This document shows positions 2,166 through 32,847 of a stretch of 33,064 nt of DNA, piece by piece; position 1 is the first letter of the stretch; every line of letters begins with the position of its first letter. The DNA is taken from contig JANYAX010000028.1 of NCBI GenBank assembly GCA_025361085.1, positions 1 to 33,064 of the forward strand, read 5' to 3'. The translations under genes were made by a program, and so were the position numbers. The notes beneath the pieces are model-generated. The model was not told the DNA's origin. It worked only from the letters and a program-made list of their open reading frames with translations, and made no database searches. The DNA comes from Candidatus Nomurabacteria bacterium. Lineage in GTDB: Bacteria; Patescibacteriota; Minisyncoccia; Phycocordibacterales; UBA9973.

Positions 2166-2340
2166 TGTGCCCCGTGAGGGAATCTCGCCCTACGGTCGCT
2201 GGTATTTTTCATGTTGTAAACAACATTGAAAAATCTTTCGCTCCCCTCACGCAAGCAAAGCAGTTTGCTTGCTACGAGGCACACATATTAAAAAAGACGC
2301 CTTAGCCGCTTTTTTAATATGTGTGCCCCGTGAGGGAATC
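2166..2340 (-). mobile_element. Putative small tRNA-3'-end-associated structured element (Lys copy)
   Basis: 19-bp direct repeats TGTGCCCCGTGAGGGAATC at 2166-2184 and 2322-2340 flank hairpins and a core shared with the tRNA-Gln copy (8914-9066). Confidence 0.55.
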
Positions 2341-2396
2341 GAACCCCCGACCATCTCCTTAAGAGGGAGCTGCTCTACCAGCTGAGCTAACAGGGC
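2325..2396 (-). tRNA. tRNA-Lys(CTT)
   Basis: GCCCTGT/ACGGGGC acceptor, GCTC/GAGC D-stem, anticodon loop CTCTTAA, GGTTCGATTCC T-arm; no encoded CCA. Confidence 0.92.
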
Positions 2397-6092: not shown

Positions 6093-6867
6093 GAAAAAAA
6101 TTATATTTTTAGACACAGAAACAACTGGGAATGAGCCCAAAAAAGATTTTCTTTGCCAGCTTGCATACAAGACGCGAGACCTGCCAGCGCAGGCAGGTGA
6201 AACTTTTTGTGAACTATACAAACCGCCGATTCATATTCCACCTGAAGCAAGTGCTGTGACTCATATAACAGACAAAACAGTTGTTGATAAAAAAGTATTT
6301 AGAGAAAGTCCTGAATATGTAAGAATAAAAACACTTCTCGAATCACCCGATTCAGTTCTCGTAGCCCACAATGCAAAATTTGATATTGCTATAATTGCAA
6401 ATGAAGATATCATCCCCGCACATTTTATTTGCACTCTGCGAGTAGCAAGATTTTTGGATAAGAACAATGTCATTCCACAATACCGTCTACAATATTTGAG
6501 ATATTATTTAGATATAGATATTGAGGCATCCGCACACGATGCTCTTGGCGATGTTTTAGTTCTCGAAAAATTATACGAGAGATTACTTGATAAAATAAAA
6601 GAAACCCCCTCTGCCTTTGGCATCTCCCCCTTATCAGGGGGCGAAGAAATACACGATCAAATTATAGAGAAAATGATAGAAATATCATCCAAACCATCAC
6701 TTATGAATATGTTTAATTTCGGGAAATATAATGGCAAGACCGTCCAAGAAGTCGCCAACATTGACCGCGGATACTTAGAATGGATGCTCGCGCAGAAAGA
6801 ACAAAATGAGGATAATGAAGAAGATTGGATATATACTCTTAGATATTATCTTGGCAAATTGCAGTAA
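6091..6867 (+). CDS. DnaQ-like 3'-5' exonuclease
   Basis: IFLDTETTGN..., VAHNAKFD, HDALGDV exonuclease motifs. Confidence 0.88.
   Translation: MKKIIFLDTETTGNEPKKDFLCQLAYKTRDLPAQAGETFCELYKPPIHIPPEASAVTHITDKTVVDKKVFRESPEYVRIKTLLESPDSVLVAHNAKFDIAIIANEDIIPAHFICTLRVARFLDKNNVIPQYRLQYLRYYLDIDIEASAHDALGDVLVLEKLYERLLDKIKETPSAFGISPLSGGEEIHDQIIEKMIEISSKPSLMNMFNFGKYNGKTVQEVANIDRGYLEWMLAQKEQNEDNEEDWIYTLRYYLGKLQ
6179..6198. repeat. Palindromic element copy (LPAQAG-encoding)
   Basis: ACCTGCCAGCGCAGGCAGGT, in frame in the dnaQ-like gene. Confidence 0.7.
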
Positions 6868-8856: not shown

Positions 8857-8927
8857 TTGGGGATCGTCTAATGGTAGGACAGCGGCCTTTGAAGCCGTTA
8901 ATTGGGGTTCGAATCCCTGTCCCCAAG
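8857..8927 (+). tRNA. tRNA-Gln(TTG)
   Basis: TTGGGGA/TCCCCAA acceptor, GTCT/GGAC D-stem, anticodon loop CTTTGAA, GGTTCGAATCC T-arm, G73. Confidence 0.92.
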
Positions 8928-9066
8928 CAAAATTAAGCGAAGCGCAATTTTGCGTGGGAAGTGAATGAACTGCTTTATTCACGTCAGGGATTCGAGAGAC
9001 TTTTCCTTACCGAAGACGGGAAAGTACCCGCGACTGTAGGGCGAGAAATTCCCTGTCCCCAAGCAA
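8914..9066 (+). mobile_element. Putative small tRNA-3'-end-associated structured element (Gln copy)
   Basis: 17-bp direct repeats TCCCTGTCCCCAAGCAA at 8914-8930 and 9050-9066; internal hairpins and core match the tRNA-Lys copy. Confidence 0.55.
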
Positions 9067-12446: not shown

Positions 12447-13469
12447 TTATTTTGTCTTTTGTAAAAATTCTTTTACTATTTTTTCTACCTCTTTTGCATT
12501 TTTGGTTTCCATGAGCTTCATACGGAGTTCTTTGGCTCCATCCCTGCCTTCGCAGGCAGGAAAACCATTCACATACGCCTTGTAATGCTTTTTCATAACT
12601 GCAAAATTTCTATGTTTACCTAAAAGTTTCTCAAATAATTTCGTATGTTCGAGCATAACTTTAAGACGTTTAGTTAAAAAATCTCGCCCTTCGCTCTTAC
12701 TCAGGACATTTTTGTTTTTATGTAAAGATGCAAACAAAAATGGATTACCAAATATACCACGGCCGATCATGATTCCATCGCAACCAGTTTCTTTCCACTT
12801 CCTCCTACCATCGTCAATGTCTACGACATCACCGTTTCCAATTATTTTAGTTGTGACTTTCATTTCATTTCGAATCTCTACTACCCTCTTTACATAATCC
12901 CACTTAGCAGGAACTTTCGACATTTCTTTGCGAGTTCGAGCATGAATAGTAAGCGCATCAATTTTTTGAGAAAGTAAAAATGGAATCCATTCTTCGAGCT
13001 GGCTTTTATTGTAACCGACGCGAGTTTTTACAGATATAGATATTTGTTTCCCGGAATCTCTTATACCATCTTTAACAGCCTCTATTATCTCTCCAGCTTT
13101 TTCCATACTCTTCATCATAGCAGCGCCAGCACCTTGACCCTCTACTGAACGATCTGGGCAACCCATATTGATATCGATACCATCAAAACCAAGCGAGGCA
13201 ACATATTTTGCCGCTTGGCGCATTTTCGTCGGGTTCGAAGAAAAAAGTTGCGCGACAATTGGTTTTTCTTTTTTAGAATAAATTAAATTATCTTTTAAAA
13301 TTTCTCTTCCTTTACTTGTGAGCCCGTCTGCTGAAACAAACTCTGTCCATAAAACATCTGGTTTACCATACTTTGTAATAATACGACGAAAGGCGGCGTC
13401 CGTGACATCGGCCATCGGCGCTAAGCAAAAAAAGGGCTTCGGTAATTTTTCCCAGAAATTTTTCATCAC
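12447..13469 (-). CDS. dus: tRNA-dihydrouridine synthase
   Basis: CLAPMADVTDAAFRRI, GIDINMGCPDRSVEGQGAGAAMM, KTRVGYN, GRGIFGNPFLF. Confidence 0.95.
   Translation of the reverse strand: MMKNFWEKLPKPFFCLAPMADVTDAAFRRIITKYGKPDVLWTEFVSADGLTSKGREILKDNLIYSKKEKPIVAQLFSSNPTKMRQAAKYVASLGFDGIDINMGCPDRSVEGQGAGAAMMKSMEKAGEIIEAVKDGIRDSGKQISISVKTRVGYNKSQLEEWIPFLLSQKIDALTIHARTRKEMSKVPAKWDYVKRVVEIRNEMKVTTKIIGNGDVVDIDDGRRKWKETGCDGIMIGRGIFGNPFLFASLHKNKNVLSKSEGRDFLTKRLKVMLEHTKLFEKLLGKHRNFAVMKKHYKAYVNGFPACEGRDGAKELRMKLMETKNAKEVEKIVKEFLQKTK
12543..12560. repeat. Palindromic element copy (PACEGR-encoding)
   Basis: CCTGCCTTCGCAGGCAGG, in frame in dus. Confidence 0.75.
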
Positions 13470-16578: not shown

Positions 16579-18828
16579 ATGAAACTTTTAATTGTTGAAT
16601 CACCATCAAAAGCAAAAACTATCGAGAAATATTTGAACGGCGCATACACAGTGCGCGCGTCTGTCGGGCATATCAGAGATTTGCCAAAATCAAACAAAGA
16701 TGCGATTGATATACCTGCAGGATTTGTTCCTCGTTATGAAATATCAAAAGGAAAAGAAAAGGTTGTTCATGAGCTAAAATCACTTGGTGAAAAAGCGTCA
16801 GAGATAATGCTTGCGACCGACCCGGACCGTGAAGGTGAAGCAATCTCTTGGCACTTAAAAGAACTATTGGATGCTGATAAAAAAATAAAAGCCAAAATAA
16901 AAAGAGTAACTTTCCATGAAATTACGAAAGAGGCAGTCGAAGAAGCATTACAAAACCCACGCGATATTGACCAAGATTTAGTAAGGGCTCAAGAAGCACG
17001 TCGTGTGCTCGATAGACTTGTCGGATATGACCTATCGGGAATAATTTGGAAAAAGGTTCGTTACGGCTTATCGGCTGGGAGAGTTCAATCCCCTGCTCTC
17101 CGCATAATAATGGAACGTGAAAGAGAAATTCGCGCATTTGTTCCTGAAAAATATTTCACACTTGAAGGGATTTTTGATACGCAGAAAAAATCAAGAATAA
17201 CAATGTCTTGCGCAGAAGAACCACGAGATGAGAAACTGGTAGAAAAAATATTGGATTTAGGAAAAAAAGAAAAATGGTTTATTACAGATGTAAAAGCGAG
17301 CGAACAAAAACGCTCACCTCGTGCGCCTTTCACAACTTCGACACTTCAACAAACCGCCAGTTCAAGAATCGGTTTCTCCCCTTCACGAACAATGCAAACT
17401 GCTCAGAAACTTTATGAAGCAGGTTATATTACTTATATGCGTACAGATAGTACAAATTTATCTTTACAAGCCCAAAATCAAATATTGGGACTTGTCGAGA
17501 AAAAATATGGCAAAGAATATGCCGAGAAACATATTTATAAAACTAAATCAAAAAATGCCCAAGAAGCCCATGAAGCTATTCGCCCTACACACGTAGAACA
17601 AGAGCGCGCAGGCAGTACAGAAGACCAGAAAAAACTTTACAACCTCATTTGGGAGAGAGCTGTATCTTCTCAAATGTCAGATGCTAAATTATTAAAAACG
17701 AAAATCACTGCAAATATTGAAAGTAAGAAAATTCCAGATTTTTCTGCTAACGGTTCACGAGTATTGTTTTTGGGTTGGCTTACCTGTGACACAGGAGCCC
17801 GCGGAGAAGATGTTGAATTACCAAAAGTTGAAATCGGAGAAGAATTAAAACTTATTGATTTAACAAGTACCGAAAAATTCACTGAACCACCAAATCGCTA
17901 TAGCGAAGCTGGGTTGGTCAAAGAACTCGAATCTCGCGGTATTGGCCGACCTTCTACATACGCATCTATAATGAAAACAATCGAAGATCGTGGTTATGTC
18001 AGAAAAGAAGGGAGAACTCTATTACCCACAGATACTGGTGATGTGGTATCCTCGTTTCTTGAAGATAATTTCGCAAATTATATCAGTGACACATTCACAG
18101 CAGAAATGGAAGATGAACTCGACGAAATATCGAATGGTAAAAGAGAATATGTAAAAACATTAAAAGATTTCTACATCCCATTCCAAAAAGAAATAAAAGA
18201 AAAAGACAAATTGTCCAAAGCCACCAATATGGGCGAAGCACCTAGTGATATAAAATGCCCTAAATGTGAAAGCGATATGATTATAAAGCTCTCTCGTGGC
18301 GGTAAATTTTACTCATGCAATAAATATCCAGATTGTACTGGAGCTAGAACGATGGAAGGCAACGAACTCGAAGGACCAAAAGAAACAGGAGAAATGTGCC
18401 CACTTTGTGGCCTGCCTGCGCAGACAGGAGAAAGAAAGAAGAAAGTTCAAGGTGGTAAATTAGTTATTCGCGAGAGACGCGATGGCTCTGGAACTTTCAT
18501 ATCATGTTCTCGCTACCCAAAATGTAAATTCGTAAAACAAGACGAGGAAGAATTAAAAAGAAAAATGACCGATATCACCTGCCCTGTTTGTAATAAAGGC
18601 AAAATGATGGAACGCAAGGGACGATTTGGAATATTCTACTCATGTAGTAACTACCCTGATTGCAAAAATGCTATCAAAGCAAAACCAACCGGAAACACTT
18701 GTGACCTCTGTGGATCTCTCATGATGGAAGGCACAAAAACAATTCCAGAGCGATGCTCAAATAAAATGTGTAAGAATCATAATCCGCACAAATTAGGAAA
18801 CGACATCAAGAATAATAAGAAAAAATAA
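16579..18828 (+). CDS. topA: DNA topoisomerase I
   Basis: KLLIVESPSKAKTIEKYL..., YITYMRTDSTNLS, C-terminal CxxC zinc ribbons. Confidence 0.97.
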   Translation: MKLLIVESPSKAKTIEKYLNGAYTVRASVGHIRDLPKSNKDAIDIPAGFVPRYEISKGKEKVVHELKSLGEKASEIMLATDPDREGEAISWHLKELLDADKKIKAKIKRVTFHEITKEAVEEALQNPRDIDQDLVRAQEARRVLDRLVGYDLSGIIWKKVRYGLSAGRVQSPALRIIMEREREIRAFVPEKYFTLEGIFDTQKKSRITMSCAEEPRDEKLVEKILDLGKKEKWFITDVKASEQKRSPRAPFTTSTLQQTASSRIGFSPSRTMQTAQKLYEAGYITYMRTDSTNLSLQAQNQILGLVEKKYGKEYAEKHIYKTKSKNAQEAHEAIRPTHVEQERAGSTEDQKKLYNLIWERAVSSQMSDAKLLKTKITANIESKKIPDFSANGSRVLFLGWLTCDTGARGEDVELPKVEIGEELKLIDLTSTEKFTEPPNRYSEAGLVKELESRGIGRPSTYASIMKTIEDRGYVRKEGRTLLPTDTGDVVSSFLEDNFANYISDTFTAEMEDELDEISNGKREYVKTLKDFYIPFQKEIKEKDKLSKATNMGEAPSDIKCPKCESDMIIKLSRGGKFYSCNKYPDCTGARTMEGNELEGPKETGEMCPLCGLPAQTGERKKKVQGGKLVIRERRDGSGTFISCSRYPKCKFVKQDEEELKRKMTDITCPVCNKGKMMERKGRFGIFYSCSNYPDCKNAIKAKPTGNTCDLCGSLMMEGTKTIPERCSNKMCKNHNPHKLGNDIKNNKKK
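18411..18428. repeat. Palindromic element copy (LPAQTG-encoding)
   Basis: CCTGCCTGCGCAGACAGG, in frame in a topA zinc-ribbon region. Confidence 0.7.
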
Positions 18829-21487: not shown

Positions 21488-21571
21488 GCGTCGGTGGCAG
21501 AGTGGTCAATTGCATTTGACTGTAAATCAAACGCCCTTGCGGCTACGTAGGTTCGAATCCTACCCGGCGCA
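21488..21571 (+). tRNA. tRNA-Tyr(GTA)
   Basis: GCGTCGG/CCGGCGC acceptor, class II variable arm, anticodon stem-loop TTTGA-CTGTAAA-TCAAA. Confidence 0.95.
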
Positions 21572-26676: not shown

Positions 26677-26770
26677 ATTGCTAGCATACCTAAAAAGAGG
26701 TATTATTTCAATACAACTTAATAAGAGTAGCCTAAACCTTTATTTTATAAAGGTATGGTTAATAAACAGT

Positions 26771-26872
26771 CCTGACAGACATAAAGAACCCATCATATGG
26801 GGTTGTCTGTCAGGCCATGCAGGAAACTGCATGAGAGATCTCGGTCTCTACCTATGTGGTGGGCTTTTTGTT
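26771..26872 (+). ncRNA. Candidate structured RNA / leader with terminator
   Basis: CCTGACAGAC...GTCTGTCAGG (10 bp), CATGCAG-GAAA-CTGCATG (7 bp, GNRA loop), AGAGA/TCTCT, then CTACC-TATGT-GGTGG-GCTTTTTG. Confidence 0.55.
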
Positions 26873-29449: not shown

Positions 29450-30076
29450 ATGAGCGAAAATAAATCAGAAAAATTAATTTGTAAAGACTTTAAACCAATT
29501 ATAGAAAAAGCTATAAAAGAACTAAAAGATGGTGAAAATCGTTTTGTTATTTCTGATTCTTTAGTAAAGTATCCTTTTATTAGTGAATTTCCTAATCCAG
29601 ATTTTTCTGAAAGAGTATCTTCTGATTATGGAGTACCATCAAACAATAAAGAAATTGAAGCAGATTATTTTGAAGAAGTAAGATTGTTAAAACAATTAAT
29701 AAAAGAAGCAGATATTCAAATAAATCTTTCAAATTGGCAAATATCAGGAAATAAAAGTGGAGAAGATATGTGGAAAGAATTAAATATTCAAGCATACTCT
29801 ATTCAGTTGTGGGATTGGTATGCAATTCCATTACGATATAAAAATAATGCCATATATATTATATGGCCACCACAAGATGTATATCAAGGAACACCAATTA
29901 TACATAGCTATCCTATTGATTTTTTTCTAAAAATTCTTTCTGGAGTTTTAGAAAAACAGACAGAAGATCATATAAAAACATTAAAAATGTTAAATCTTTG
30001 GAAAAATTTTGGAATGATAGTTCTTACAATTTTTATAATTTTTGTTTTAACTAAATTATTAATAATAATGAATTAA
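29450..30076 (+). CDS. Hypothetical protein with C-terminal TM
   Basis: Trimmed start MSENKSEKLICKDF; C-terminal FGMIVLTIFIIFVLTKLLIIMN. Confidence 0.6.
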   Translation: MSENKSEKLICKDFKPIIEKAIKELKDGENRFVISDSLVKYPFISEFPNPDFSERVSSDYGVPSNNKEIEADYFEEVRLLKQLIKEADIQINLSNWQISGNKSGEDMWKELNIQAYSIQLWDWYAIPLRYKNNAIYIIWPPQDVYQGTPIIHSYPIDFFLKILSGVLEKQTEDHIKTLKMLNLWKNFGMIVLTIFIIFVLTKLLIIMN

Positions 30077-30093
30077 AGAAATAAAAGATATAT

Positions 30094-30252
30094 ATGAAAA
30101 AGAAAACTACAACAATGTCACAGGAAGAAGAGAAACTACGCTACCAAGAGGCGGTGAGAATGGTTCAATTTCTAGTGAAAATAGGTCAGATAAAGAAAAT
30201 GCCATCAGAAGCGGAAATGAAGGCGTATTGGGAGAAACTAAAGAAGTACTAA
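30094..30252 (+). CDS. Small protein, tandem copy 1 (52 aa)
   Basis: MKKKTTTMSQEEEKLRYQEAVRMVQFLVKIGQIKKMPSEAEMKAYWEKLKKY*; paralog of the next ORF. Confidence 0.65.
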   Translation: MKKKTTTMSQEEEKLRYQEAVRMVQFLVKIGQIKKMPSEAEMKAYWEKLKKY

Positions 30253-30261
30253 AAGATATAT

Positions 30262-30417
30262 ATGCAAAAGAAAACTACAACAAACAAACAGGTGCCAGAC
30301 ATAATGAATTACCAGTTCGCAGTGAATCTAGTAAAGCACTTAGTGAAAATAGGTCAGATAAAGAAAATGCCATCAGAGGAGGAAATGAAGGCGTATTGGG
30401 AGAAGATTAATAAATAA
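30262..30417 (+). CDS. Small protein, tandem copy 2 (51 aa)
   Basis: MQKKTTTNKQVPDIMNYQFAVNLVKHLVKIGQIKKMPSEEEMKAYWEKINK*; shares LVKIGQIKKMPSExEMKAYWEK with copy 1. Confidence 0.65.
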   Translation: MQKKTTTNKQVPDIMNYQFAVNLVKHLVKIGQIKKMPSEEEMKAYWEKINK

Positions 30418-30965: not shown

Positions 30966-32522
30966 CTAACATCTTCTAGTACGGCGCACCAAGATAGTAC
31001 AAATAGGTTTAGCGGGGGTTAATGTATGGGTGTGCCGTAGGCACGCCCACGCTGTTTGTGTTTGGTTTGCAACGGAATTTGAAAAATCGGGCGCGCTAGC
31101 GCGCACTAATCTTTCGCCGAGGAGGAGGTTCGAGCCAAAGACTTTTTTGGCAGCAACCTTTTTATTCAAAAGGTTGCAATCCAGTGCAATTTTTTCCATA
31201 TTTTGAGCCTCTTTTATCCATTCTCGCATCGGTTCGAGCCAATGTTTTTGTTTTTGTTGATTAAGAGATATTTCTTCCTCGAGCGACTTCTTTTCAGATA
31301 ATAAAATCGCTTTTTGAGTTCTGTAAGTTTCTTTATCAATATCTTGTTCTAAATATCCTTCTAGAAGTCGCTCAAGCTTTGCAGAAATATCTTTTATACT
31401 TTTTTGATTCTTTTCAACAAAAACAGAAACAGATTGGGCGGATTTATTTTCATCTTCATTGAGTCTCGTGTTTAAATAATCCGCCCAATCTTGTGGCATA
31501 GAAACTTTTTTGAGAAGTGATGAAATTTGCTCGTCCAAGACCTCTTGGCGAATGCAGGATTCGGGACATTTCATATCTCGTCTTTTCTTGGAACAATGAT
31601 AATAAGTATAGTAATGTTCTTTACCACTAATTTGTCTTTTAATCCTGTATTCGCCAGTTATCATCATTCCACAAGTAGCACAACTTAGGAGCCCGCAAAA
31701 TACTTGTGGTTCATTTTTATGAATCAGTCTTGGACGACCTCTCTCTTTCATCACTTCTTGAACTCGATCAAAAAGTTTCTTATCCACAATTGGTTCAAAC
31801 TTTCCTTCATATATTTCTCCAGCGTAGCGGAAATGTCCGTAATAGAATGGATTGGAGAGGATAAAAGTGGCTCGTGTTCTGTGTATTTTCTTTCCGTGTT
31901 TTGTCAAAAGATTATGTTTCGCCAAAAACATACCAATAGTATCAAGCGTTTGATTCCCTTGTGCATACATCTCAAACGCTTGGCGAACAACAGGCGCGGA
32001 CTTGGTATCTATTACAATCGTTTTCGTTCGACTATCATTTATATATCCTACAGGTGAAAGTCCTGGGTATTCTCCGCGCCTAACTTTTTGGCGTAAACCT
32101 CTTTTGGTATTTTCGGAAAGAGAATCCACATAATATTTACTTTGTCCGAAAGCCATATTGAGCATAAATTTACCCTGTGAAGTAGAATCACACCAAAATG
32201 TTGGGAATTTTAGGCTCGCAAGTTTCCCAATGTCGAGGAGATAAATAATCTTACCGCCATCAATACTATTTCTTGCAAGACGATCCGGATGCCAAGAGAG
32301 AACAGAATCTGCATCGCCATTTTCTATACACTTCATCATCTCATTGAAAATAGGTCTGCCTGGAATTTTTGCAGATTGTTTTTCAATGAACTCTTTGGCG
32401 ATGTAGAGATTTTCTCTCTTGGCATAGTCTCGTAATTCTTGCAATTGTGCCTCAATACTAAGCACCTGCTTATCCTCGACATCTGTGGACTTGCGAGCAT
32501 ACAAAAAGAATTTTTGTGACAT
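30966..32522 (-). CDS. Large serine recombinase, LSR2
   Basis: FFLYARKSTDVEDKQVLSIEAQLQEL, WHPDRLARNSIDGG, zinc ribbon CATCGMMITGEYRIKRQ. Confidence 0.93.
   Translation of the reverse strand: MSQKFFLYARKSTDVEDKQVLSIEAQLQELRDYAKRENLYIAKEFIEKQSAKIPGRPIFNEMMKCIENGDADSVLSWHPDRLARNSIDGGKIIYLLDIGKLASLKFPTFWCDSTSQGKFMLNMAFGQSKYYVDSLSENTKRGLRQKVRRGEYPGLSPVGYINDSRTKTIVIDTKSAPVVRQAFEMYAQGNQTLDTIGMFLAKHNLLTKHGKKIHRTRATFILSNPFYYGHFRYAGEIYEGKFEPIVDKKLFDRVQEVMKERGRPRLIHKNEPQVFCGLLSCATCGMMITGEYRIKRQISGKEHYYTYYHCSKKRRDMKCPESCIRQEVLDEQISSLLKKVSMPQDWADYLNTRLNEDENKSAQSVSVFVEKNQKSIKDISAKLERLLEGYLEQDIDKETYRTQKAILLSEKKSLEEEISLNQQKQKHWLEPMREWIKEAQNMEKIALDCNLLNKKVAAKKVFGSNLLLGERLVRASAPDFSNSVANQTQTAWACLRHTHTLTPAKPICTILVRRTRRC
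30987..31133 (+). repeat. Left arm of 147-bp inverted repeat flanking LSR2
   Basis: caccaagatagtacaaatagg...ggaggaggttcga; matches reverse complement of 32701-32847 with about 2 mismatches. Confidence 0.95.
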
Positions 32523-32700: not shown

Positions 32701-32847
32701 TCGAACCTCCTCCTCGGCGAAAGATTAGTGCGCGCTAGCGCGCCGGATTTTTCAAATTCCGTTGCAAACCAAACACAAACAGCGTGGGCGTGCCTACGGC
32801 ACGCCCATACATTAACCCCCGCTAAACCTATTTGTACTATCTTGGTG
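32701..32847 (-). repeat. Right arm of 147-bp inverted repeat flanking LSR2
   Basis: tcgaacctcctcctcggcg...actatcttggtg. Confidence 0.95.

Follow-up and report, generated by a model that had tools for sequence, protein, structure and literature searches.

Antisense arms matched to the host gene in a family of short palindromic elements at tRNA and tmRNA 3' ends in Patescibacteria

The stretch of DNA analysed here (the window, 33,064 nucleotides) comes from a Candidatus Nomurabacteria genome of 38 contigs and 771 kb, and contains three tRNA genes. Two of the three, tRNA-Gln and tRNA-Lys, are directly followed at their 3' side by a short palindromic element, while no element lies directly behind the third, tRNA-Tyr at 21488. 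Both copies are laid out in Table 1. They belong to a family of elements of around 110–180 bp that sit directly 3' of tRNA genes, and also of tmRNA, and that share one order of parts: the tRNA 3' end itself (S1), often a terminator-like hairpin (hairpin 1), an arm antisense to the acceptor (arm A), a 9-bp hairpin with a CTNC loop (hairpin 2), an arm antisense to the T arm (arm B), the core hairpins and finally S2. Each element contains the reverse complement of its own host gene's 3' strand (positions 54–73), and the constant 9-bp hairpin interrupts this antisense stretch at the junction of acceptor and T stem. S2 repeats the T-stem 3' strand in sense orientation, often together with the rest of the 3' end, and in the Gln copy it also takes in two flanking bases past the annotated end of the tRNA. 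The DNA fold calculated over the whole Gln copy has a z-score of −6.3.

Table 1. Coordinates in the window of the two host tRNA genes and of the parts of their elements
Feature	Position	Strand	Basis
Host tRNA-Gln(ttg)	8857-8928	+	ARAGORN and Rfam
tRNA-Gln S1 (3' strand), tRNA positions 54-65	8908-8919	+	ARAGORN and Rfam
tRNA-Gln S1, acceptor positions 66-72	8920-8926	+	ARAGORN and Rfam
Gln copy, hairpin 1, GCAAAATT..AATTTTGC	8927-8953	+	sequence
Gln copy, arm A, partial antisense to acceptor 3' strand (GTGGGAA against TCCCCAA)	8954-8960	+	sequence and family-wide statistics
Gln copy, hairpin 2, 9 bp, CTGC loop	8961-8982	+	
Gln copy, arm B (arm of the first-pass annotation), antisense to T-stem 3' strand and T loop	8985-8996	+	
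Gln copy, core: hairpin 3 (ACTTTTCC..GGGAAAGT) and GTA-loop hairpin in GCGACTGTAGGGCGAGA	8997-9046	+	
Gln copy, S2, second copy of tRNA 3' end, 17 nt	9050-9066	+	direct repeat of 8914-8930
Host tRNA-Lys(ctt)	2323-2396	-	ARAGORN and Rfam
tRNA-Lys S1, tRNA positions 54-65	2343-2332	-	
tRNA-Lys S1, acceptor	2331-2325	-	
Lys copy, hairpin 1, terminator-like, T6 run	2281-2323	-	sequence
Lys copy, arm A GCCTCGT, antisense to acceptor ACGGGGC, one G-T pair	2274-2280	-	
Lys copy, hairpin 2, 9 bp, CTGC loop	2251-2272	-	
Lys copy, arm B GAGGGGAGCGAA, antisense to T arm	2237-2248	-	
Lys copy, core: GTA-loop hairpin in GCGACCGTAGGGCGAGA and hairpin 3	2183-2236	-	
Lys copy, S2, tRNA 3' end again, TTCCCTCACGGGGCACA	2166-2182	-	

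A first-pass annotation of this DNA had described the Lys arm GTGAGGG as a perfect complement of CCCTCAC in tRNA-Lys. The complement is exact, and the arm (2250-2244) matches both the tRNA (2336-2330) and its second copy (2180-2174). The corresponding claim for the Gln arm, CAGGGA (8985-8990) against TCCCTG (8914-8919 and 9050-9055), is likewise correct and understates the match, which is 11 nt long (CAGGGATTCGA, 8985-8995, against TCGAATCCCTG, 8909-8919) and extends into the T loop. That arms differ between copies and track their tRNA was also borne out, by strong covariation across 90 elements. Arm B covaries with the 12 tRNA positions 54–65, and all four Watson-Crick combinations were seen at positions 59, 63, 64 and 65, with the proviso that the cells of this table are non-independent through shared ancestry. 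Even variants of the T loop are followed, C55 standing opposite G in 4/4 cases and A57 opposite T in 15/15, and complementarity then ends sharply at position 54. When the arms of 93 elements were compared with the adjacent tRNAs, 90 matched; the other three needed a gap for alignment or carry a unit of another type. The proposed covariation also proved to be above chance, for in 28 copies found by the core motif alone, complementarity to the T arm of the own tRNA exceeded all 20,000 permutations (z=10.5), with z=9.2 for acceptor complementarity and z=14.8 for identity of the second copy. These results confirm that the match of the arm to its own host tRNA is real and widespread.

Where the two strands of the T stem offer different options, the arm agrees with Watson-Crick pairing to the 3' strand in 20 cases, with identity to the 5' strand in 4 and with neither in 6. 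The earlier remark that the Lys arm is not copied from the T-stem 5' strand therefore holds generally, and a copy of that strand is ruled out as the origin of the arm. The acceptor part of the tRNA is missing from S2 in 23 of 42 copies, and in these 23 copies arm A still forms Watson-Crick pairs with the acceptor 3' strand in 149 of 161 cases, so the partner of the arm is the tRNA itself. A plain structural stem with S2, the alternative raised in the first-pass annotation, is accordingly insufficient, as the arm tracks T-loop position 55 and the acceptor where S2 lacks them. S2 does retain 4–5 of the 5 T-stem bases in 38 of 42 copies, and two alternative pairings are thus possible on sequence grounds: a folded tRNA with the arm paired to S2, or the arm paired to S1 with S2 re-pairing to the 5' part of the tRNA. 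Within the arm, G.T pairs outnumber A.C mismatches by 32 to 10 (p=0.001), an excess that points to selection for pairing. In hairpin 2, G-U pairs occupy 4 of 589 paired cells versus 115 of 2193 in the stems of these genomes' own tRNAs (Fisher p=3e-8), and such near absence of G-U in element stems is as expected if these were made or mended as DNA (PMC8794818).

We mined genomes, mostly metagenome assemblies, for further members of the family. A search with the pattern GCGACYGTAGGGCGAGA, a core sequence outside the arms, turned up copies in 17 of 147 family genomes, their hosts being tRNA-Gly, Leu, Ala, Ile, Asp, Gln, Tyr, Cys, Glu, Lys, Pro and Val. A covariance model (R1), built on an alignment of 24 copies, including no tRNA and representing the first core type only, contains 22 proposed pairs with both-sided changes in 76 cells versus 17 in shuffles. 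It had matches in 108 of 146 family genomes and in 26 of 379 sampled across the phylum, and these matches, including weak ones in other classes, lie nearly always immediately 3' of a tRNA. For eight genomes of the genus the count was 57 of 71, and several matches not behind an intact tRNA lie behind tRNA remnants. A tmRNA serves as host at three loci (L287, L251 and L245), including one in the genome that the window comes from, and at L019 and L219 copies have promoter-like sequence ahead of them and no tRNA. A second core type (AGACGGAGGC..GCCGAG..GGGGTCG..GTGACC) is present in yet other copies, again with an antisense arm of this kind. Cores are recognisable in many families of the phylum, and the CTNC and GTA loops and one A.G mismatch are conserved. 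A terminator-like T run separates tRNA and arms in 35 of 46 copies. Only a minority of tRNAs bears an element, and which ones do so differs by species. Outside Patescibacteria, exact core-motif matches adjoined no tRNA among the matches listed, apart from the tRNA-Val locus L097. Rfam models, including those of group I and group II introns and ribozymes, gave no match over the elements, and a full-text literature search with partial coverage returned no description of the family. At one locus (L223, 1161-1406) a group I intron match immediately precedes the 3' half of a tRNA with an element behind it; the interrupted gene is probably a tRNA-Asn split by the intron.

The nearest core was on the same tRNA type in 3 of 54 cases and in the same genome in 13 of 54 (6.8 expected); cores and arms therefore have different histories, and cores have been exchanged between different tRNA types while the arms match the host. 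Behind tRNA-Ser(tga) of two species, hairpin 1 is near-identical and the cores are different. Orthologous sites differ in occupancy. Behind Arg(cct), G048 has an element, G057 a decayed footprint, and the sites of G000 and G047 are empty; behind Gly(gcc), G064 and G066 have an element and the site of G044 is empty; and behind Phe, G044 and G048 have one, with a terminator hairpin after S2, while G000 and G047 have none. Tandem units are common, as are decayed remnants. Since recombination of S1 with S2 would remove an element cleanly, with an empty site as the result, the filled and empty sites document turnover without giving its direction. Fragments of tRNA 5' ends occur upstream of 24 of 207 tRNA loci. 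Their frequency is not raised at loci with elements (5/72, against 19/135 at loci without), and we dropped the idea that an element carries a replacement tRNA that splits the host gene. Intron splicing at C56/R57, prompted by a fold where S2 completes the cloverleaf, was dropped as well, since S2 often has no acceptor part or starts near position 60. At one tRNA-Arg(cct) locus (G044:C1, L165, about 2014-2260), the 5' and 3' ends of the ancestral tRNA-Arg bracket a different, complete tRNA-Arg(cct), which has element-like sequence behind it and a short inverted repeat on both flanks.

The closest known system is the rtT RNA of the tyrT-tyrV repeats in E. coli (RF00391, gene rttR). It also lies 3' of a tRNA, its unit has the tRNA 3' end repeated in sense orientation as its last part (19 nt in E. 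coli), the arm and this copy form a closing stem, and units occur in tandem. Its arm GGGGAAGGATGAGAAG is antisense to the tRNA T arm at 10 of 12 positions, with a 57–58 variant that also occurs in some Patescibacteria copies. This match is weak alone (8 of 500 shuffles were as good), but the arm is present in three units, and Rfam's model itself has it as the closing stem. Unlike the Patescibacteria elements, the E. coli units are found behind tRNA-Tyr only, have a different core and show no 9-bp CTNC hairpin. RF00391 itself had no match at E<=1 in 20 Patescibacteria genomes, the window's included, and none over the Gln copy at E<=10. The elements are thus rtT-like in layout, with the same position, sense copy and closing stem, and fall short of the RF00391 gathering cut-off. 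We know of no settled function for rtT.

Elements that integrate into tRNA genes, such as tyrosine-recombinase islands and prophages, likewise leave an intact tRNA and a duplicated tRNA 3' end around the insert, and S1 and S2 form just such an attL/attR-like direct repeat, sometimes with flanking bases. The inserts described here differ in being about 110–180 bp long, without genes or an integrase of their own, in occupying many tRNA types per genome and in having internal antisense arms matched to the tRNA. REP sequences and their RAYT (TnpA-REP) genes are comparable as short dispersed palindromes, and Y1 genes occur in this genus too. These genus genes have palindromes of their own (AGGTCTTGCCT, RAYT/REP-like, flanking the genes at L254 and L255), however, whereas the elements sit at tRNA ends and have neither a GTAG foot nor a linked TnpA-REP gene. 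With IS608 of the IS200/IS605 family the elements share pairing with an adjacent target and hairpins of the ssDNA type. IS608 has constant 4-nt guides and its own Y1 gene, in contrast to the host-specific pairing of ~12–20 nt and the lack of a linked gene here, and IS200/IS605 insertions make no target-site duplication, whereas the tRNA 3' end is present twice around our elements.

A search for HUH/Y1 transposases, as the first-pass annotation had suggested, recovered Y1 genes in 19 of 24 genomes of the genus, and the two with readable flanks are bordered by unrelated hairpins of their own with no R1 match. Y1 genes were not found in G049, G052, G057, G059 and G060, all of which bear elements, a result that depends on assembly completeness, and none was found in an element-bearing genome rated 100% complete. 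Reverse transcriptase genes are absent from half of the genomes checked, the element-rich G055 included, again depending on completeness. With element-bearing genomes lacking a detected gene in either case, both enzymes appear dispensable as movers. Tyrosine recombinase genes (PF00589) number one or two in most genomes of this genus, and none was detected in G048, which has 26–29 element matches (subject to its completeness). No dedicated gene was seen for a tyrosine recombinase as mover, and action of such an enzyme in trans is possible. The elements are too short for a gene and contain none, and among Y1 transposases, reverse transcriptases and tyrosine recombinases no mobility enzyme was linked to the family.

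How, then, does the arm come to follow its host? It could be a guide that chooses the target, a copy of the adjacent strand, or the product of slow coevolution under selection for pairing; we consider copying together with coevolution most likely, with moderate confidence. The guide-like role proposed in the first-pass annotation survives as far as the arm's covariation with the tRNA, and is unsupported as regards target choice: there is no sign of the arm predating insertion, and Y1 appears dispensable. In its strict form, a transposon with IS200/IS605-like logic whose arm pairs with the tRNA T arm and so selects it, this explanation seems to us very improbable. The succession of cleavage site, guide and hairpin, then guide, hairpin and cleavage site does resemble IS608 ends, and longer engineered pairing redirects IS608 (PMC5934647); the frequency of Y1 genes in the genus would also suit it. 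It is opposed by the element-bearing genomes in which Y1 was not found, by the unrelated hairpins around the inspected Y1 genes, and by the fact that a fixed guide cannot fit a new host unchanged. The 4-nt guides of IS608 belong to the element, whereas here about 20 nt change with the host, and copying from the target fits these nucleotides at least as well as target choice. The elements form a large family of short, non-coding, palindromic DNA at tRNA and tmRNA 3' ends in Patescibacteria. Our preferred reading, held tentatively and at somewhat less than an even chance, is that they have spread or been swapped as recombining or mobile DNA. The arm would be matched to its host by copying of the adjacent tRNA strand, at insertion or later, through template switching between inverted repeats, a process that creates and mends such repeats (PMC8794818, PMC8604942), and selection would then maintain the pairing; the arm would not act as a guide that picks the tRNA. 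A bolder, rather unlikely version is a self-retargeting element that, on reaching a new tRNA or tmRNA gene, takes in a reverse-complement copy of its 3' strand, the arm then serving excision, the next insertion or control of the host tRNA.

Several findings weigh against the preferred reading. The conserved loops and A.G mismatch, the promoter-preceded copies and the rtT parallel fit an RNA equally well, the data leave gain versus loss undecided, and no mobility enzyme is linked. A cis-acting RNA, transcribed with the tRNA, whose arm pairs with S2 (tRNA free) or with S1 (tRNA trapped, S2 re-pairing with the 5' part) and which would govern maturation of the tRNA or give rise to a free RNA like rtT, is a possibility to be taken seriously, if a doubtful one. 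Consistent with it, elements are always on the tRNA's strand, tmRNA, having only the acceptor/T-arm domain in common with tRNA, is also a host, the hairpins are RNA-like with double-sided changes, the fold has a z-score of −9.3, the arm favours wobble over A.C, and rtT, with the same layout, is annotated as a small RNA. The minimum-energy fold also speaks for it, trapping the tRNA 3' strand in 47 of 48 cases; since a tRNA is already folded when its trailer is transcribed, this preference does not show the state in cells. The terminator-like hairpin ahead of 35 of the 46 copies, the rarity of G-U relative to tRNA stems and the restriction of elements to a minority of tRNAs that varies by species also count against an RNA. 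Low G-U, together with the frequent tandem units and decayed remnants, would equally suit template switching alone, by which replication errors would produce the inverted and direct repeats at tRNA ends and keep them matched, with neither function nor mobility. We regard this as improbable: the process is established, but by itself it leaves unexplained the sharp stop at position 54 and the constant architecture, with a hairpin 2 of exactly 9 bp at one and the same junction, and the cores are recognisable across many families of the phylum.

The rtT RNA of E. coli, until now an isolated curiosity, becomes one case of a widespread arrangement with rich covariation. The family offers a natural system in which the sequence of a short element is adapted to each host gene, and whether arms are copies of the tRNA, select it or regulate it is now testable. 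Being common behind the tRNAs of reduced genomes, it bears on tRNA annotation and on tRNA gene change in these bacteria.

Other features of the window include a 53-bp direct repeat (92%; 2375-2427 and 2449-2501, 74 bp apart), comprising the first 12 nt of tRNA-Lys and its upstream region and so placing a piece of the tRNA 5' end ahead of its own gene. A REP-like palindrome, CCTGCC..GCAGGCAGG, is present in three copies (6180-6206, 12543-12569 and 18411-18437), a LOOT RNA (RF03000) lies at 26729-26849 (71.9 bits), and two 168-bp direct repeats of coding-like sequence occupy 30076-30416. A 518-codon open reading frame (30966-32522, minus strand) is flanked by a 147-nt inverted repeat (30987-31133 and 32701-32847, 99% complementary) and looks like an insertion element.
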